In this document: positions 1,618 to 17,244 of the stretch, piece by piece
Layout of the letters: every line of letters begins with the position of its first letter
Position numbering within the stretch: the first letter of the stretch is position 1
NCBI GenBank assembly: GCA_009693865.1
Contig: SHWL01000029.1
Coordinates: forward strand, 1 to 35,395
Direction of reading: 5' to 3'
DNA: 35,395 nt
Source: Acetobacteraceae bacterium
GTDB taxonomy: Bacteria > Pseudomonadota > Alphaproteobacteria > Acetobacterales > Acetobacteraceae
Notes under the pieces: generated by a model
Database searches by the model: none
What the model saw: the letters and a program-made list of their open reading frames with translations, nothing else
What the model was told of the DNA's origin: nothing
Position numbers and translations under genes: made by a program

Positions 1618-4600
1618 ACGCTACGGCGCCCCGTAAGGAAGTCGATGTGGCTCCATACCAATAACCGCGCGAGTGATCTCGCCTCCGTATTGCTCCAGTA
1701 ACGGGCTTGGTCGAGAAGCTCAACCCATAGGCATTGAGCTTCATCGTCGCGATAGATCATCAGACTGGAGGCAAGCTGATCGGCCGCCCGGAGCAGCTTC
1801 TGCCAGTCGGTTGCAAGTTGTGCGGGCTTGCCTTCGGTTGCGGCACCGACTCGTATTTGCAGACCTCTCCAGGCGGATGCCGTTGCAGCGGGAGCAGAGT
1901 GCACAGCAATTGTCCGCTCGTTCCTCCGAGCCCAAGGCTGCAGCTCCGATTCCAGCACTTTCCTGAATCTTGTGACTTGCTGCTCTTGCGTTCGAGCTCG
2001 GGCGGCGGCACGGCATGCAGCGAACGGTAAGTTAAAGCGCAGCGTGTCATCAATGACCTGGAGGTCTTGCGGTTGCAGACCGTAGAGCTGCGCAGCCCAG
2101 GCATCGACTTCAGTCCAGGTCTCTTCGCTAGCCACGTTGGACAGCCCGTCGAATAGTTCGTCTACCCGGTCCAATTCGACTCTCGTAAGGCTATCAAAAT
2201 CGGGCACCAAGATTCCGTCTATGGTGGACTTCTCAAGGACGTCGCGTTCAAAACCGAATTCACCGCTTGTCAGAAGTGTCAGCCACAAAGCAGGCTTACT
2301 ACCAATGACGAGACCGAGAAAGCGAAGCAGCCGAGCCCCCTCCTGGTGGGCTGCTGCGCTATAGCCGTAATAACTTTCGCTGAAAATGACATCATTCATC
2401 GCCAAGCCAACCTGTATCCTCATTTTTCCAGCCGGTGGTGACTTGTGCACGACGAGGATTGGGGCGCTGAAAAGCGTACGACGACGAGGATCATGGATGC
2501 GCTCCCGATCAAACAACGGAAGTGCATTAATTTGGATCAAGATTGAGGCCAAGGAGTCGTCGGTGATTTCAGGCAACCCGTGGAGATAAGCTGCCGAGCA
2601 GCCAGGTAGTCCGTCCCCAGTTTTTCGCACGCGGCTGCTCTTCCGAAGATGCTGGTAGCCATTTCCTGCGAAACGAAGGTGACCTCTTTCAATACCAAAC
2701 CTACGCTCCCAATAGTCTCTAATCGTCACGAGGTTACCCGTTTCAATGCGCTCAATAAGGCGAAGATCAGCGCTCCCACCTCTGAACAGGATCTTCAAAA
2801 TTTCTGGCCGACGAGTAACCTGATCGGTCGTAACGAGGTCTGCGCGGGTCGCATCGATACGCATCGTGCCGGCGCCGTTCAAAGATGGCTCTAGCCGCGG
2901 GCTTACAAAACGGAAGGCCGCTTCCGGCCCTGGCATTTGGTTGCGCGCGAACAGAAGGCAAAACGGCGCGGAAACCTCCGGCCAAACTTTGGTTTGGCGA
3001 AGTTCCGCACCATTTACCACGCCGGTGACATCAAGGGCGCCGAAGAGCGCCTCCCGTGCCTGAGGCATGCTGTCCCCCTGCTGAAAAAGCAGGCGGGCGT
3101 GCAGAGCAAATGCGATCTGGCCTCCGGGTCGAGCCCACTCCATCGCGCGCCAGACGAATGGCAAATCGAGCCCCTCGTTCGGAAGCGTTGGCCGTACCGT
3201 AGTGCCATTCGAACGCTTGTCGGCGATCGCGGTCACAGCTTCCAGAACCCTGGGCCAGCCGGGCAGTTTTGTTCCGCTCGCCCAGGGTGGATTGCCAATG
3301 ACAAGGTCATAACCTTCACCGGGACTGGCGTGGAAGTCAGGATCGAGGCTGCCCAGTCCCCGCGTCGCGTTGCCGCTAATCGACCCAGCCCTATGTAACA
3401 CCCGGCCGCGAAGGTTTTCGAAGGCGAGTTTCCCAACCGGCTCCGGGTCTGGGTCCAACTCGATCGACATCAGATAAAGGCCCAGCGCGGCGAAGCGCAG
3501 CGCGGACTCATCAATGTCGAATCCAGTGATCTGCTCGTAGAGTATCTTCCGAAGAGTCCCAGTCCCGGGCCTCGTCCGATCGCTTCGCCATCGTTCGGCC
3601 ACGATTCGCCGGAACGTCGCGAGCAGGAAGACGCCGGCACCAGACGCCGGATCCAGAACTCGGGCCTTGGCAGCGCGGCCTTCCTCCACGAGTGGGGCGA
3701 ACGCGCCGCGAACCATCAACTCCGCGATATGACGCGGCGTGTAATAGCCGCCGCGACTGCGTTGGCCCGCCGCATCGTGTTTACTCAGATATCGCTCGTA
3801 CGCCTGGCTGAGAACACCGACAGGGATGTGGGCAAAGTTCAAATCATCCCAGCTTTCCGCCCATCCAAGCGCGAGTTGCCCACCTGCCGCGCGGCGTGCG
3901 ATATCGCCAAGCACCTTGAAGCCGTCGATGGGCAAGCGTTCAAACGTCCCGCCCGAAAACGGGAGGAAATCGCCGTTAAAGGTCCCGTCCAACCAGTCGG
4001 ATGTCGTGAGGGCCACATTGGCCGAATCGAACAGGGTGCCTTCCACCGCTTGCGACCGCAGCGGCTCGGGCAACAGGCCCCGGTCTCCCAGGAAGCGAGC
4101 AAAGAGCGCGCGACCGACCAGGGATATGGCGTCCTCAATGGTCAGGCCGCACCGCTGCGTCAAAGTGTCCAATGCGTCGTCGAGCAAGTCCAAAATAACC
4201 TGGGCGATCCACCCGCGGTTTGGTGGGTTGGATTCGGGACGCACGTTGCTGAGGTACGCGAACGTCGCAGCCTGCTCGTTGTCCGGTATCCCAACATTGA
4301 CTCGGGCCCGCTCGATTGGATCGGCATCCAACGCGACCCGGTAGACATCGAGGCGACCGGGCGCGACGACGCCCAAATAGGGCGCGTCGCCCCGCATCGC
4401 CGCCATGCGTCGAATCCGGACCAACCGCGTTCCATCCGATCCGAGACGATCAGCATCTACCAGGAACATTAGCGGCGCGTCCTGCCACTCGTAGACCCCG
4501 AAAAGAGCATCCAGATCGGCGTCGCCCCTGGTGCGCGCCGCCGTGAGGGTCGCGTACGGAAGGAGTTCTGGACCATCCTCGCCAAACAAGCGCAAGTTGC

Positions 4601-10691: not shown

Positions 10692-13334
10692 ATGAACGAC
10701 CAGCCCACTCCGCCGAGACCCGCGATCCCCGCCGGTGCCACCCCGGCGATGGCGCAATGGTTCGCCGCCAAAGCCGATTACCCCGACGCGCTGTTGTTCT
10801 TCCGCATGGGCGACTTCTACGAGCTTTTCTTCTCCGACGCCGAGGCCGCGGCCGCCGCCCTCGACATCGTTCTCTCCCATCGGGGCGAGCACAACGGCGT
10901 CCCGATCCCCATGTGCGGCGTTCCCAAACACGCCGCCGAGACCTACCTCGCCCGCCTGATCCGCCGCGGCTACCGCGTCGCCGTCGCCGAGCAAATGGAG
11001 GACCCAAAAACCCGCGCCTCCACCAAAATCCCCATCCGGCGCGAAATTGTCCGCGTGATCACCCCGGGCACGATCACTGAGGAGGCACTGCTGGAAGCGG
11101 GCCAGCCCAATCTCCTGCTGGCCCTGACCCGCGACCGGGACACGGTGGGCGCGGCATGGCTCGATATCTCCACGGGAACGTTTGAAACCGCCGCCGTCCC
11201 GCTCGCCGAACTGCCGGCGTTGCTGGGCCGCCTGGAACCGGCGGAGATCGTCGCGCCCGAGACCCTGCCGCTTGGCGAGTGGACGACACGTCGGGGGCCG
11301 GAGACCGTGCCCTCGCCGCCCTTGGTTGCCCGCCGCCGCCTGGCAGAGGTCTTCCAGACCGCCGATATCGAGGCTTTTGGCACCTTCACCGACGCCGAGG
11401 CGGTGGCTGCGATGGTCGCCGTCGACTACGTGCGCAAAACCCAGGGGGGCGTCCTGCCGCGGCTGGCCCGGCCCGCGCCATTGGGGCAGGCGGGCGTGAT
11501 GGCGATGGACGCCGCGACCCGTGCCAGCCTGGAAATCCACCGCGCCCGCGACGGCGGAACGATGCACACACTATTGGCGGCAGTGAAGCACACCGTGACG
11601 CCCGCGGGCGCCCGGTTGTTGAGTGCCTGGCTGGCGTCCCCTCTGACCGATCCCATAGCCATCGGGGCGCGGCAAGACGGGTGGTCGTGGATGCTCGCGA
11701 ACTCTCAGGCGACCATCCGTCTGCGTGGCGCGCTACGGGCGTCACCCGACCTCGCCCGGTCACTGGGGCGGCTGTCGTTGAACCGCGGCGGCCCGCGCGA
11801 TCTGGCCGCCGTACGCGACGCGTTGGCCGCGGCTCACGACGCGGCGACGGCGCTGGACGGGCCACTGCCTGCCACTCTGGGCGCGGCGCGGACAACGCTG
11901 GCGCGGGAACTGCCGGTCCAGTCCACGCTGATCGCCGCGCTGACCGATCCGGCACCATTACGGGTGGAGGACGGCGGCGCGATAAAATCCGGTTATGATG
12001 GCGAACTGGACGCCCACCGGTCGTTACGCGACGACAGCCGCCGCGTGCTGGCGACGATGCAGCTCGACTACGCCCAGAAATTCGGTGTCGCGAGCCTGAA
12101 GATCCGCCACCACGCGCAACTCGGCTACATCATCGAAGCCCCGGCCGCCGCTGTCGAAGCCCTGCGCGCCTTCCCGGAACTGACGCTACGCCAGGGCATG
12201 GCGAACGGTGCCCGGTTCACTGAACCCGGCCTGTCCGACCTCGACCGCCGAATCACCGAGGCGGGCGATCGCGCCGCCGCCCGCGAAAAGCTGGTGTTCG
12301 GCCATCTGGCCAAAGCCACGCTGGACCATGCCGATGCCTTGGCGGCCCGCGCCGATGCCATCGCGTTTCTGGATGTCGCGCAGTCGGCCGCCAGCCTCGC
12401 GGCCTCGGGAACCTGGTGCCGGCCGGTGGTCACGGATGACGATTTATTCCAGGTGCGCTCCGGACGGCACCCGGTCGTGGAAACCGCGCTGGCGGGTCAG
12501 GCCGCTTTCGTTCCGAATGCCTGCGATCTCTCGCCCGAGCGCCGCGTGCTGCTGCTGACCGGTCCGAACATGGCCGGCAAATCAACGTTTCTGCGGCAAA
12601 ATGCGTTGATGGCCGTACTGGCGCAATCCGGGCTGCCGGTGCCCGCCGAAGACGCGCGCATCGGCGTCGTGGACCGCTTGTTCAGCCGCGTCGGCGCGGC
12701 GGACGACCTCGCGCGCGGCCGGTCCACCTTCATGGTGGAGATGACTGAAACAGCGGCGATCCTGAACCAGGCGGGCCCTCGCTCCCTCGTCGTCGTCGAC
12801 GAGATCGGCCGCGGCACCTCGACAACCGACGGTCTCGCCATCGCCTGGGCCGTGCTTGAGGCACTCCACTCCAACATTCGTTGCCGGACCATCTTCGCCA
12901 CGCATTTTCATGAACTGGCGGAACTCGCGGAGCGGATGCCGCGCATCCGGCCACATACGATGCGAGTCAAAGAGTGGCGCGGCACCGTCGTGTTCCTGCA
13001 TGAAGTGGCCGAGGGCGCGGCGGGACGATCCTGGGGCGTGCATGTCGCGGAACTCGCGGGCGTGCCAAAGCCCGTGGTACGGCGCGCCGCCACGCTTTTA
13101 AATGCGCTGGAGAAACAGAATTCCCCCCTGGCCGCGGGTGGCGCTTTGGGCGCATTACCCTTGTTCGCGGCGGCAACGACCACAGATGAACCCGTGGGCG
13201 AAACGCCACAAGACGACGTATTACGCCGCGCGCTGACCGAGCTCGACCCAGACAGGTTGACACCGCGGGAGGCGTTGGATGCACTCTATCGCCTGAAAGC
13301 CCTGCTGCCCGCCTCCGCCGGAGTCACCGATTGA
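10692..13334 (+). CDS. mutS: DNA mismatch repair protein MutS
   Basis: An 880-residue mismatch-recognition ATPase that starts methyl-independent or methyl-directed repair with MutL. The N-terminal mismatch-binding domain has the F-x-E motif in GDFYELFF (residues 40-47). The C-terminal ABC ATPase has Walker A GPNMAGKST at 624-632, then a SRVGAADDLARGRSTFMVEM signature, and Walker B with SLVVVDEIGRGTSTTDG from 698. A downstream FATHFHEL switch and the C-terminal helix-turn-helix region follow. Its length fits the family (850-910). No strong Shine-Dalgarno is visible before the ATG. It is followed after 28 bp by glnD, probably in the same transcript. Confidence 0.97.
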   Translation: MNDQPTPPRPAIPAGATPAMAQWFAAKADYPDALLFFRMGDFYELFFSDAEAAAAALDIVLSHRGEHNGVPIPMCGVPKHAAETYLARLIRRGYRVAVAEQMEDPKTRASTKIPIRREIVRVITPGTITEEALLEAGQPNLLLALTRDRDTVGAAWLDISTGTFETAAVPLAELPALLGRLEPAEIVAPETLPLGEWTTRRGPETVPSPPLVARRRLAEVFQTADIEAFGTFTDAEAVAAMVAVDYVRKTQGGVLPRLARPAPLGQAGVMAMDAATRASLEIHRARDGGTMHTLLAAVKHTVTPAGARLLSAWLASPLTDPIAIGARQDGWSWMLANSQATIRLRGALRASPDLARSLGRLSLNRGGPRDLAAVRDALAAAHDAATALDGPLPATLGAARTTLARELPVQSTLIAALTDPAPLRVEDGGAIKSGYDGELDAHRSLRDDSRRVLATMQLDYAQKFGVASLKIRHHAQLGYIIEAPAAAVEALRAFPELTLRQGMANGARFTEPGLSDLDRRITEAGDRAAAREKLVFGHLAKATLDHADALAARADAIAFLDVAQSAASLAASGTWCRPVVTDDDLFQVRSGRHPVVETALAGQAAFVPNACDLSPERRVLLLTGPNMAGKSTFLRQNALMAVLAQSGLPVPAEDARIGVVDRLFSRVGAADDLARGRSTFMVEMTETAAILNQAGPRSLVVVDEIGRGTSTTDGLAIAWAVLEALHSNIRCRTIFATHFHELAELAERMPRIRPHTMRVKEWRGTVVFLHEVAEGAAGRSWGVHVAELAGVPKPVVRRAATLLNALEKQNSPLAAGGALGALPLFAAATTTDEPVGETPQDDVLRRALTELDPDRLTPREALDALYRLKALLPASAGVTD

Positions 13335-13362: not shown

Positions 13363-16224
13363 ATGCTGACCCCCATCCCCATGCCCAAGGCGCCGGAAGC
13401 GGCGGCGGCGCAGCTATCCGACGCGCTCGCGGCCCTCGCGCAAGCGCACTCCCCAATCCCGAGAGAGGCCGCGCTTGGGGCTTTCCGCCGGCATCTGGCG
13501 CGAATTCAAAACTATGTCCGGCAGGCGTTCGAGCAGGAGCAGTTGACCGGCCTGCAGGCCGCGCGGCTTCTGGGCGCGTTGGTCGATGGCGTGGTGGTTG
13601 GACTGTATCAGCACGCGACCCATGATACTGGCCTCGGCTTGCCGGAGCGGCTGAGCGTGGCCGCCACCGGCGGTTACGGACGCGGCGTGCTGGCGCCGTT
13701 CAGCGACGTCGATTTGTTGTTTCTGACCGGTGACGATCCGGACGCTGAAACGCTACAGGTCGTCGAGTACATGCTCTATTTTCTTTGGGATCTCGGGCTG
13801 AAGGTTGGGCATGCGACACGTTCGATCGACGATTGCCTGACCGAGGGCGCCAAAGACACGACAATCCGTACCGCGTTGCTGGATGCAAGGCATGTCACCG
13901 GCGACAAGCCGTTATTCGCCGATTTTCATCGCCGTTTCCGGGCCGCGTGCAAGGACGCCGGCGTCGTGGAATACATCGCCGCGAAGCAAGGTGAACGCGC
14001 GGTGCGGCATCGCCGTTACGGCGACAGTCCGTTCATGGTGGAGCCGAACGTCAAGGAAGGCCGCGGCGGATTGCGGGATATTCAGACATTGTACTGGATC
14101 GCCCGTTACGTTTTCGATACGCAGACCATGGGCGAACTGGCCGATCTCGGCGGCATCCTGACGCAGCAGGAAGCGCGGCATGGCCGCCGGGCCTGGGAAT
14201 TCCTGTGGACCGTCCGCTTCCATCTGCACTATGTCGCCGGGCGCGCCGAGGAACGGCTGACGTTCGATCTGCAACCGGTCGTCGGTGCGCGCATGGGATA
14301 CACCAGGCACGGCAAACAAGACGGCGTCGAGCGGTTCATGCGCCACTACTTCCTGAATGCCCGTGACATCGCCCGCCTGACACGCATCCTCGAACCCGCG
14401 ATCCTGCGCGCTGCTCTCGGGCCGCCGGCGATCGAGGCGGAGACGGACAAGGCATTGCTGGACAGCGGATTTGTATTGGCCGAAGGCAAATTGCTGCCGC
14501 TCACCGGACGGGACTTTGACTCCGATCCGATTCAGATGTTACGCGTTTTGCGGATTGCCCGCGATCGCAATCTGGAACTGCATCCGCTGACCGTGCGTTC
14601 GTTCATTCAAAATGAACGTCGCGCGGTGTCGTTACGTGATGACAAGAAAGCCTCGGCGCTTTTCATGGACCTGTTATGCGGTAAACCGCCTGAAAAACGA
14701 CGCCCAGGAGACCGGCCGGGGGAGCGTCCGCCGACAAATCATCCGGATGGCGCCAAATGGTTGACGATCCTCAATGAAACCGGATTTTTAGGCCGTTACA
14801 TGCCCGATTGGGGCCGCATCGTCGGTCAGATGCAATTCGATACATATCATATTTTCACGGTCGACGAGCACACGATCGAAGCCGTCAAAGTCCTCAACGC
14901 CATGGAACGCGGCGAGATGATTGAGATCGCGCCGGTCGCCTCGGAACTCATTGAGCAGATTGAATCGCGGCGCGCTTTGTACATGGCCATGATCATGCAT
15001 GACATATGCAAGGGCCGCGGCGGCGACCATTCCGAGCTTGGCGCCGAACTGGCGCTGGAGATTTGTCCTGGCTTTGGCCTGACCGCCGAGGAAACCGAAA
15101 CGGTCTCCTGGCTGGTACTGCATCATCTGCTGCTCAGCACGATGGCGTTCAAGCGCGATATCGACGATCCGAAGACTATTCTCGATCTGGCGGAAACCAT
15201 TCAGTCACCGGAACGGTTGCGGTTGCTGCTGATCCTGACAGTCGCCGATATGCGGGCGGTATCGCCGAAAGTATGGAACGCATGGAAGGCGACCTTGCTG
15301 CGGGAGTTGTACGCGCGCGTGGCCGAAGTCCTGGCCGGCGGTCTGTCCACCACCGAACGCGACGTGCGCGTGCAGCGCGCGAAACAGGCAGCGGGCGCCT
15401 TGCTTCCCGGCTGGTCCGATGAAGACAAAGCGTGGTTCGCGGGTCTTGGCTACCCGGCTTACTGGCTCTCATTCGATCCGGACACTCATTCCAGGCATGC
15501 GCGGCTGTTGCGCGATGCCAATCGACGCAAGGCGCCTCTGACGGTGGATACGCAACCGCTGCCAGCCCGAGCCGTGACCGAGGTCACTGTCTACGCCGCC
15601 GATCACCCGGGCTTGTTCAGTAAGATCACGGGCGCCATGGCGGTGGCGGGCGCTTCGATCGTGGATGCGCGCATTCATACCATGACCAACGGCATGGCCT
15701 TGGATACGTTCTGGATTCAGGACGCGGCCGGGGGAACATTCGAACAGCCGCACCGCCTCGCGAAACTGGCGTCGCTGATTGAACTGGCGCTGTCGGGCCG
15801 GTTGCGGTTAACCCACGAAATTCGCAAATTGTCGCGCGATTCCTATGGCAAACGCATGCGGGCGATCCACTCGCCGCCCCGCGTTGTCATGGACAATCAC
15901 GCGTCGAACACGCACACGATCGTGGAGGTCAACGGCCGCGATCGGCCCGGCCTCCTGCACGATGTCACGGCGGCGATCAGTGAACAGGGACTTCAGATCG
16001 CCTCGGCGCATGTCACGACTTACGGCGTGCGCGCGGTCGATGTGTTTTATGTGAAGGATGTTTTCGGCCTGAAGGTCGAAAACGAACGCAAACTGACCGG
16101 CCTGCGCGAAGCGTTATTGAAGGCGCTGGACAGTCCAGATGATCCCGCCCCGGCGGCCACCGAAGTGGTGGAGGCGGACGACGCGGTGCCGAGAGCCCGG
16201 CGGCGCCGGAGGGCGGCCGCGTAA
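13363..16224 (+). CDS. glnD: Bifunctional [protein-PII] uridylyltransferase / uridylyl-removing enzyme
   Basis: A 953-residue nitrogen sensor that uridylylates PII proteins when glutamine is low and deuridylylates them when it is high. The domains are in order. The nucleotidyltransferase domain has GGYGRG at 103-108 and SDVD near 114-117 for metal binding. The HD hydrolase domain has MHDICKGRGGDHSELG near 545. Two C-terminal ACT domains begin near 738 (VTVYAADHPGLFSKI) and 854 (VEVNGRDRPGLLHDV) and bind glutamine. Its length is typical (about 900-950). The protein ends in an acidic stretch followed by an Arg/Ala-rich basic tail. A selenoprotein gene follows 21 bp after the stop and is likely co-transcribed. 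Confidence 0.97.
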   Translation: MLTPIPMPKAPEAAAAQLSDALAALAQAHSPIPREAALGAFRRHLARIQNYVRQAFEQEQLTGLQAARLLGALVDGVVVGLYQHATHDTGLGLPERLSVAATGGYGRGVLAPFSDVDLLFLTGDDPDAETLQVVEYMLYFLWDLGLKVGHATRSIDDCLTEGAKDTTIRTALLDARHVTGDKPLFADFHRRFRAACKDAGVVEYIAAKQGERAVRHRRYGDSPFMVEPNVKEGRGGLRDIQTLYWIARYVFDTQTMGELADLGGILTQQEARHGRRAWEFLWTVRFHLHYVAGRAEERLTFDLQPVVGARMGYTRHGKQDGVERFMRHYFLNARDIARLTRILEPAILRAALGPPAIEAETDKALLDSGFVLAEGKLLPLTGRDFDSDPIQMLRVLRIARDRNLELHPLTVRSFIQNERRAVSLRDDKKASALFMDLLCGKPPEKRRPGDRPGERPPTNHPDGAKWLTILNETGFLGRYMPDWGRIVGQMQFDTYHIFTVDEHTIEAVKVLNAMERGEMIEIAPVASELIEQIESRRALYMAMIMHDICKGRGGDHSELGAELALEICPGFGLTAEETETVSWLVLHHLLLSTMAFKRDIDDPKTILDLAETIQSPERLRLLLILTVADMRAVSPKVWNAWKATLLRELYARVAEVLAGGLSTTERDVRVQRAKQAAGALLPGWSDEDKAWFAGLGYPAYWLSFDPDTHSRHARLLRDANRRKAPLTVDTQPLPARAVTEVTVYAADHPGLFSKITGAMAVAGASIVDARIHTMTNGMALDTFWIQDAAGGTFEQPHRLAKLASLIELALSGRLRLTHEIRKLSRDSYGKRMRAIHSPPRVVMDNHASNTHTIVEVNGRDRPGLLHDVTAAISEQGLQIASAHVTTYGVRAVDVFYVKDVFGLKVENERKLTGLREALLKALDSPDDPAPAATEVVEADDAVPRARRRRRAAA

Positions 16225-16245
16225 CCAAGCAGAGGAGACACGAAC

Positions 16246-16464
16246 ATGAATGTGGAAATCGAATATTGCGGCATGTGAGGCTATGAACCACGCGCCCGTG
16301 CGGCGCGGGATCAGATCCTCAAGGCTCAGAGTACGGCGGCCGTGACGCTCAAGAAATCTGGCGGCGGCGTGTTTGAGATCGTCGTGGACGGACGGTTGGC
16401 CTGGTCGAAGAAGGCCACCGGGGCGTTTCCGACGGACGAACAGGTGATAGCTACAGTAGGGTGA
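16246..16464 (+). CDS. SelW/Rdx-family selenoprotein with in-frame TGA (selenocysteine)
   Basis: A 72-residue thioredoxin-like Rdx protein, decoded only if the TGA at 16276-16278 is read as selenocysteine. It then gives IEYCGMU followed by GYEPRARAAR, the CxxU redox motif of the SelW/SelT/SelH family in its usual place near residue 8-11. The C-terminal part has SGGGVFEIVVDG and WSKKATGAFPTDEQV, which match the family's conserved GVFEV-DG and SKK--GRFP blocks. The match on both sides of the TGA argues against a real stop. AGGAG lies 8 bases before the ATG, and the gene sits 21 bp after glnD. A SECIS-like hairpin follows the TGA directly. Rdx proteins are thought to be small thiol/selenol oxidoreductases. 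The selABC genes are not in the window. Confidence 0.85.
16285..16312 (+). promoter_or_regulatory. Bacterial SECIS-like hairpin after the selenocysteine TGA
   Basis: Inside the coding sequence, CGCGCC at 16291-16296 pairs perfectly with GGCGCG at 16302-16307 around the 5-base loop CGTGC. Two further C-G pairs (16288-16289 with 16308-16309) add past a bulged A at 16290, and G-C and A-T pairs continue after an A-A mismatch. The loop starts 18 bases after the TGA and has G as its second base. As I recall the bacterial consensus, the loop lies about 16-37 bases from the TGA with a G among its first two positions, which this meets. SelB binding is inferred. Confidence 0.75.
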
Positions 16465-16479
16465 CGACGCTGTAGCTCG

Positions 16480-16506
16480 GCCCCCCGGACAGTTTTCCCG
16501 GGAGGC
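16480..16506. terminator. Hairpin between convergent genes
   Basis: GCCCCCCGG at 16480-16488 pairs with CCGGGAGGC at 16498-16506, with one mismatch and a 9-base loop containing TTTT. It lies 15 bases after the selenoprotein stop and 29 bases before the convergent FYDLN gene's end, so it could terminate both transcripts. No T-run follows on the plus strand. Confidence 0.5.
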
Positions 16507-16535
16507 TCAAACCGTGCTTGCGTAAGCCGCCCGCG

Positions 16536-16880
16536 TCAGACGAGCGCTTTGCCATCATCAGGATCGACTTCGATCTCGATTTCAACGTCGGTATCGTCAT
16601 CGATTTCCGCGTCATCGTCGTCGGGGATGTCTGCTTCTTCAACGTCATCCACGACGAGATCGTCGACGGTTTCCAACTTTTCCTCGGCCGCGACCGGCAG
16701 CGGCCGGCGGCTGAAGGCGCCCCGATCCGAGGAGGCGCGGAGCGGGCGGTACATGCGCGGCTTCGGCGGTGCCTGCACGGCGTGACACTTAAAACAGACC
16801 ACCGGGCTTCTGTTCAGGTCGTAAAACCGTTCGGCACACGCTTCACAGGTATACTTGGTGCCGAATTCCGGCTTGCTCAT
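16536..16880 (-). CDS. FYDLN acid family protein (TIGR02300)
   Basis: A 114-residue small protein of unknown role, widespread in Alphaproteobacteria. The N-terminus has a zinc-ribbon pattern, CEAC then CFKC, with the family's FYDLN sequence between (residues about 11-32). The rest is a strongly acidic, Asp/Glu-rich low-complexity tail. The start is the ATG at 16880 with GAGGA just upstream; the frame is open further but the added residues are not family-like. It lies 10 bp after the stop of the small membrane protein gene, so the two probably form an operon. The function is not known; an RNA-polymerase or nucleic-acid-associated role would be a guess. Confidence 0.88.
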   Translation of the reverse strand: MSKPEFGTKYTCEACAERFYDLNRSPVVCFKCHAVQAPPKPRMYRPLRASSDRGAFSRRPLPVAAEEKLETVDDLVVDDVEEADIPDDDDAEIDDDTDVEIEIEVDPDDGKALV

Positions 16881-16890
16881 CGGGTTTTCC

Positions 16891-17244
16891 TCAGCCAGCC
16901 TTCGTGTGGAGTTTATCGGCGCAGGCGCGCGCAAGGGCGTCATTGCCTGATGGCTTGCCGTCCTGCGAAGCCCAGCCGGCCTTCATGACGATGTCAGCGC
17001 GCGAATACGAAGATTGTTCGGCCTGAAACTTCGTCAGCGTCGCCGTGTTCGGATCGCCCTGGGCCTTCGAGACACAATAGGGCAGCAGCGCCGCGACGAC
17101 CGCGGTACCAGCAATCTCCTGCGCCATCTTCTCGGACGTTGCCGCCGTGGTCCATCCCAGTTGGGAGAACCCGAAGATCGACATCGCGACCGCGCCAGCC
17201 ACAGCCCCCCAGATGCCGGGCTTTAGTCCAGTGGGAATGTTCAT
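16891..17244 (-). CDS. Small single-span membrane protein, function unknown
   Basis: A 117-residue protein I do not recognise by name. Residues about 10-35 form a hydrophobic segment (IWGAVAGAVAMSIFGFSQLGW) that would be a signal anchor or uncleaved membrane span. The rest is soluble, has two cysteines (in PYCVSKAQ and RACADKL) and shows a plausible alpha-helical pattern, probably periplasmic. The ATG at 17244 is chosen over an upstream in-frame ATG at 17274 because it starts right before the hydrophobic segment. It is the first gene of a two-gene operon with the FYDLN protein. Similar short proteins with this layout occur in Alphaproteobacteria, but I know of no tested function. Confidence 0.7.
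   Translation of the reverse strand: MNIPTGLKPGIWGAVAGAVAMSIFGFSQLGWTTAATSEKMAQEIAGTAVVAALLPYCVSKAQGDPNTATLTKFQAEQSSYSRADIVMKAGWASQDGKPSGNDALARACADKLHTKAG

Follow-up and report, generated by a model that had tools for sequence, protein, structure and literature searches.

The window analysed here, i.e. the whole stretch of 35,395 nucleotides from an Acetobacteraceae bacterium, contains a short forward frame that is opened by an ATG codon at positions 16246-16248, is interrupted by a TGA at codon 11 (16276-16278) and is closed by a second TGA at positions 16462-16464. The read-through translation of this frame is MNVEIEYCGM-U-GYEPRARAARDQILKAQSTAAVTLKKSGGGVFEIVVDGRLAWSKKATGAFPTDEQVIATVG. Re-reading of the coordinates and of the translation reproduced the start codon, the in-frame TGA and the final TGA exactly as they had been given in the initial annotation, and the AGGAG Shine-Dalgarno sequence and the gap of 21 bp to the upstream glnD gene that it had reported were likewise found in place. 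The genes and features of the locus are the following:

10692..13334, + strand: mutS, located 5' of glnD and detected by profile search
13363..16224, + strand: glnD, encoding [protein-PII] uridylyltransferase (NF003467, 1215.1 bits with a cut-off of 959), 21 bp upstream of the short frame
16233..16237, + strand: Shine-Dalgarno-like AGGAG, 8 bases 5' of the ATG, by direct reading
16246..16464, + strand: predicted SelW-like (Rdx family) selenoprotein gene of 72 residues with selenocysteine (Sec) as residue 11, according to the frame, PF10262 and TIGR02174
16267..16278, + strand: putative CxxU redox motif (C-G-M-U), from the translation, with the Cys codon TGC in all 19 genus sequences
16276..16278, + strand: in-frame TGA, probably read as selenocysteine (the U of CxxU), with the codon kept in homologues
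16289..16309, + strand: SECIS-like apical hairpin with the loop CGTGC at 16297-16301, from fold prediction, position and energy
16536..16943, - strand: convergent downstream gene for a TIGR02300 (FYDLN_acid) family protein (46.9 bits with a cut-off of 41.65)

The downstream genes on the opposite strand comprise, besides that of the TIGR02300 family protein, rbfA, infB, a gene for an RNA-binding protein that scored 183.9 bits and thus just below its cut-off of 184, and nusA. A scan of positions 16100-16640 for promoters and terminators, which carries little weight, returned none of either. The corrected reading of the locus is that of a 72-residue gene, in place of which a standard gene caller would probably see a stub of 10 codons. 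SelW genes that were missed by gene callers have been reported for Epsilonproteobacteria (PMC4607533).

The affiliation of the deduced product was deduced from profile and sequence comparisons. With cysteine placed at the TGA, the product matched the PF10262 (Rdx) profile with 67.3 bits (cut-off 22.6, E 1.4e-18), and the read-through product matched TIGR02174 with 56.5 bits (cut-off 34.2). The Pfam alignment spans residues 2-71 and crosses the TGA, which bears out the previous impression of family-like sequence on both sides of this codon. A six-frame search of the own genome with the Rdx profile detected the locus (E 2.1e-15) as the sole Rdx match found there. The NF041051 equivalog (SelTWH_Campy) of SelT/SelW/SelH family (seleno)proteins aligned with residues 3-70, and since its score of 76.5 bits falls short of the curated cut-off of 88 bits, the product was not assigned to that equivalog. 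A sequence comparison with solved protein chains placed Rdx chains nearest, with Atu0228 (PDB 2fa8) as the best one (E 2.2e-8) and mouse selenoprotein W at E 0.016. Atu0228 is a Cys-type Rdx protein that aligns with residues 3-66 and carries the C of its CxxC motif at the Sec position, but it differs from the product by having CxxC instead of CxxU and by its greater length of 105 residues. Additionally, a tblastn search of plasmid sequences with the protein yielded three records, each with less than 60% identity and annotated as Rdx or SelT/SelW/SelH.

SelW-like CxxU selenoproteins are established in bacteria and have been known for two decades; with 48 genes, they outnumber every other family in the Sargasso Sea set (PMC1088965). 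The GOS set comprises 427 selenoproteins (PMC2398784), and a 2026 review lists SELENOW-like proteins with PF10262 and the CxxU motif (PMC13188914). A survey from 2006 lists one selenoprotein family for Alphaproteobacteria and describes Cys homologues of SelW-like proteins as scarce or lacking in Sec-containing organisms (PMC1794560). The product resembles the bacterial SelW-like selenoproteins (PF10262 / TIGR02174) in its profile, its short length, its CxxU motif and a predicted hairpin just past the UGA, but differs from them in its host, which belongs to the Rhodopila group of Acetobacteraceae, and in the location of the gene behind glnD in a few genomes. No report of selenoproteins in Rhodopila or Acetobacteraceae was found in the literature searched, the coverage of which leaves out most subscription journals. 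The new gene is a further member of a known family of SelW-like CxxU proteins in a host group for which no earlier report was found.

Profile searches detected Rdx in 19 of the 33 genus genomes, including the own genome, and the respective loci include those of Rhodopila globiformis DSM 161 (L012, identical to the named-genome record L087) and Acidisphaera sp. S103 (L023, identical to L105). The own organism is accordingly placed within Acetobacteraceae in the genus to which Rhodopila globiformis belongs. In a scan that accepted any stop codon, all 19 homologues contained a single internal stop, which was TGA at the same codon in each case, and the codon preceding it was invariably ATG. At the start position of the window's frame, ATG is present in 17 sequences, GTG in one and ACA in one, the latter having an ATG farther upstream. 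For the 19 genus frames, mean pN divided by mean pS (both uncorrected) was 0.24 over codons 1-10 and 0.41 past the TGA. The codons before the TGA and those past it are both under constraint, which is consistent with translation beyond it.

The named genomes were searched with a query that started past the TGA and that could therefore not favour TGA over TGC. Among the matches listed, which hold 80 of the 83 loci, TGA was present at the Sec codon in 79 of 80 named loci; the exception, L153, starts inside the gene and has this codon off its contig. The named loci among the matches listed belong to Alphaproteobacteria, Gammaproteobacteria, Desulfobacterales, Planctomycetota and Melainabacteria. 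The genus and named counts overlap, since 16 of the 19 genus Rdx loci are full-length identical to named-genome records and recur among these 80 loci; apart from those of Rhodopila globiformis DSM 161 and Acidisphaera sp. S103, the 14 others stem from metagenome-assembled genomes. The comparison of CxxU with CxxC among homologues that had been suggested initially thus gave TGA throughout the genus and at nearly all of the named loci listed, and the relatives retain the TGA at this codon with a frame that is not broken elsewhere.

In a sample of 385 genomes of the class, Rdx was found in 46, with one TGA in 28 matches (the own one included), no stop in 17 and TAA in one. The position of the TGA was read for those 12 of the 28 TGA matches for which loci were available, including the own locus L001. 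Cysteine occupies the Sec position in the 17 stop-free loci and in the TAA locus, i.e. in 18 of the 29 class loci read, which thus have CxxC, and the TAA of the one exceptional locus is located just before the first Cys. Since CxxC genes of the Rdx family exist in the class, the locus might be regarded as a pseudogene, derived from a Cys-type Rdx gene that had acquired a nonsense mutation at codon 11. This explanation is exceedingly unlikely in view of the TGA shared by the genus and named loci, the coding constraint that persists past it and the Sec machinery encoded in the own genome. That the TGA is an error of sequencing or assembly has a probability close to nil: the own assembly is indeed fragmented, with 209 contigs and a completeness of 80.89, but the TGA is present in many separate assemblies, including those of the isolates Rhodopila globiformis DSM 161 and Elioraea tepidiphila DSM 17972.

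The initial annotation had supposed a host that makes selenocysteine and had named selA, selB, selC and selD as the genes to be sought. All four were detected in the same genome (4.48 Mb, with the locus on contig C145), by which an absence of the machinery is excluded and a Sec-making host is supported. The selA gene is located at C107:21978-23303 and its product matched SelA with 555.7 bits (cut-off 267.9). Adjoining selA is a tRNA-Sec gene (RF01852) with the anticodon TCA and a score of 70.4 bits (gathering threshold 47). The SelB protein of 657 amino acids reached 388.8 bits (cut-off 242.25), and the SelD domain, with 309.7 bits (cut-off 125), forms the C-terminal part of a 715-amino acid fusion with a pyridine nucleotide-disulfide oxidoreductase (L176:878-3025, + strand, on contig C56 of the genome). 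A second RF01852 match on the + strand of contig C144 (6506-6591) scored 47.7 bits with the gathering threshold of 47 and might represent a different tRNA whose variable arm is long. According to PMC9312934, alphaproteobacterial tRNA-Sec genes were found inside selB in PMC8124441, whereas the tRNA-Sec gene of the present genome adjoins selA; no mention of Rhodopila, SelW, UGSC, Acetobacter, Elioraea or Rdx was found in PMC8124441 by word search.

A conserved frame is in itself compatible with more than one inserted residue, and the UGA might be decoded otherwise than as selenocysteine, for instance through near-cognate suppression or a changed genetic code that yields Trp or Cys. We consider such a decoding very unlikely, because the position aligns with the Cys of CxxC homologues and with the Sec residue of previously described CxxU proteins (PMC1088965, PMC13188914), because genes for tRNA-Sec(TCA), SelA, SelB and SelD are present, and because the neighbouring genes are full family members in frames of translation table 11.

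The bacterial SECIS consensus comprises an apical loop of 3-9 bases with a G among the first two. The loop of the predicted apical hairpin starts at the 19th base past the TGA, and a longer predicted fold runs from the TGA to position 16321. In comparison with dinucleotide shuffles, the segment 16270-16325 gave a z-score of -2.33, with 5 of 200 shuffles folding as well. For the 48 bases counted from the TGA, the z-score against synonymous-codon variants was -2.49 (fraction 0.007). An unrestricted fold test across 82 unique sequences was weak (mean z -0.38), and RNAalifold predicted no structure for the 82 sequences together and only a hairpin of four pairs for the 19 genus sequences. When hairpins were restricted to apical loops of 3-9 bases with G in the first two loop bases and to a set range of distances, the observed mean energy was reached in 3 of 100 synonymous-codon randomisations of the 19 genus sequences and in 0 of 100 of the 63 others; these criteria were taken from the bacterial SECIS consensus and were chosen after the unrestricted folds had been seen. 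A hairpin directly past the UGA with a G in its apical loop is the form described for bacterial SECIS elements (PMC1088965).

The loop sequence CGTGC or CGTGT recurs among the homologues: many sequences of the window's type have it at the 19th base past the TGA, and a sister type has it at the 22nd. In the sister type (23 sequences, 21 of them distinct), columns 21 and 33 are occupied by C-G in 11, by G-C in 8 and by U-A in 2 cases and the pair is never broken, column 21 being the third position of an Ala codon at which any base is allowed. The covariation score of the sister type was reached in 0 of 500 shuffles, a control that ignores relatedness. The window's type displayed no covariation in 38 sequences, so that the hairpin is suggested there by its position and its energy.

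Genes of the UGSC family with in-frame TGA codons were also found. A frame of this family is located beside selB and runs towards it (L175, contig C9:5000-16000 of the own genome, at about 3625-4149 on the + strand), with a TGA at position 3904 for the U of the family motif. It matched NF041046 with 144.6 bits (cut-off 125) and PF24696 with 141.2 bits (cut-off 25), and the hairpin past it gave a z-score of -3.12. The own genome contains three UGSC matches with one in-frame TGA each, the other two being located on contigs C166 and C51, and the SelW-like protein as the sole selenoprotein of the genome is ruled out by these genes. The UGSC family was found in 26 of the 33 genus genomes, with a TGA-bearing match in 25 of the 26. 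In one metagenome-assembled Acetobacteraceae genome, the TGA of the SelW-like gene is preceded, at a distance of about 1.3 kb, by a TGA-containing UGSC-like motif (L108:3706, + strand). The possibility that the machinery mainly serves a Sec-containing formate dehydrogenase was also considered, but no such enzyme was found in the own genome at its completeness of 80.89: no sequence reached the cut-off of TIGR01553, and the three molybdopterin oxidoreductases detected by PF00384 contain no internal stops.

The distribution of the machinery was compared with that of the TGA-bearing genes across the 33 genus genomes. A selA gene over the cut-off was detected in 27 of them and tRNA-Sec in the same 27, and 11 of the 14 genomes with no Rdx match contain selA over the cut-off. 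TGA-bearing Rdx or UGSC genes are present in 26 genomes, each of which also scored over the cut-off for selA or selB. With phylogeny ignored, Fisher's test gave no significant association of selA with Rdx alone (p 0.36) and p 0.011 for Rdx or UGSC. In the Rdx-bearing genomes G022 and G028 neither selA nor tRNA-Sec was found, with SelB over the cut-off in both. These assemblies consist of about 920 and 670 contigs, respectively, and the other genomes carry selA and tRNA-Sec on one contig, with only an end piece of selA there in G030; a single assembly gap could thus account for both missing genes in each case. Among further Rdx-bearing genomes, no SelB over the cut-off was found in G004, G014 and G030 (completeness 64, 80 and 84) and no SelD over the cut-off in G004 and G016. 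The genomes G019, G023 and G027 (completeness 99) contain no Rdx, UGSC or tRNA-Sec match and neither selA nor SelB over the cut-off, which likely reflects loss of the Sec trait; SelD over the cut-off is kept in all three. In five genus genomes (G020, G024, G029, G031 and G032), SelB was matched twice at full length and over the cut-off, and the additional copy might act on another type of SECIS element.

The location of the gene downstream of glnD is a local arrangement. Among the genus loci, glnD is upstream in 3 of 19, namely in the window and in two relatives with about 90% GlnD identity. The 29 class loci lack it at this place, and among the matches listed it precedes the gene at 2 of 80 named loci (three of the 80 have less than 330 bases upstream), both being identical in DNA to two of the three genus loci. 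Co-conservation with glnD was discarded as functional evidence because of its restriction to these three genus loci, and a functional coupling to glnD is not supported by conservation, though it may exist within that small clade. Co-transcription of the two genes, as it had been proposed initially, is suggested by the spacing of 21 bp. An extended scenario, in which the selenoprotein gene of a small Rhodopila-group clade joined the mutS-glnD transcription unit, so that a selenium-dependent redox protein would be produced together with the PII-modifying nitrogen sensor and would act in the same regulation, appears improbable.

With the profile cut-offs of the family passed, the TGA kept among homologues and the Sec genes present in the genome, the central proposal of the initial annotation, a CxxU selenoprotein of the Rdx/SelW type, has held. 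On the basis of these sequence data, we consider it highly probable, close to certain, that the locus is functional and encodes a selenoprotein from the SelW-like branch of the Rdx (SelT/SelW/SelH) family, with insertion of selenocysteine at the UGA of codon 11. Transcription would proceed from the mutS-glnD side, and the ribosome would arrive at the UGA, where SelB with Sec-tRNA-Sec would bind the hairpin just 3' of this codon. The hairpin would thereby be used as a SECIS element, and selenocysteine would go in instead of termination. The small product would have C-G-M-U as its redox centre, and membership in the family predicts a thioredoxin-like fold and redox chemistry for it. As both SelW-like and UGSC genes are present, genomes of the Rhodopila group of Acetobacteraceae carry genes of no fewer than two selenoprotein families.
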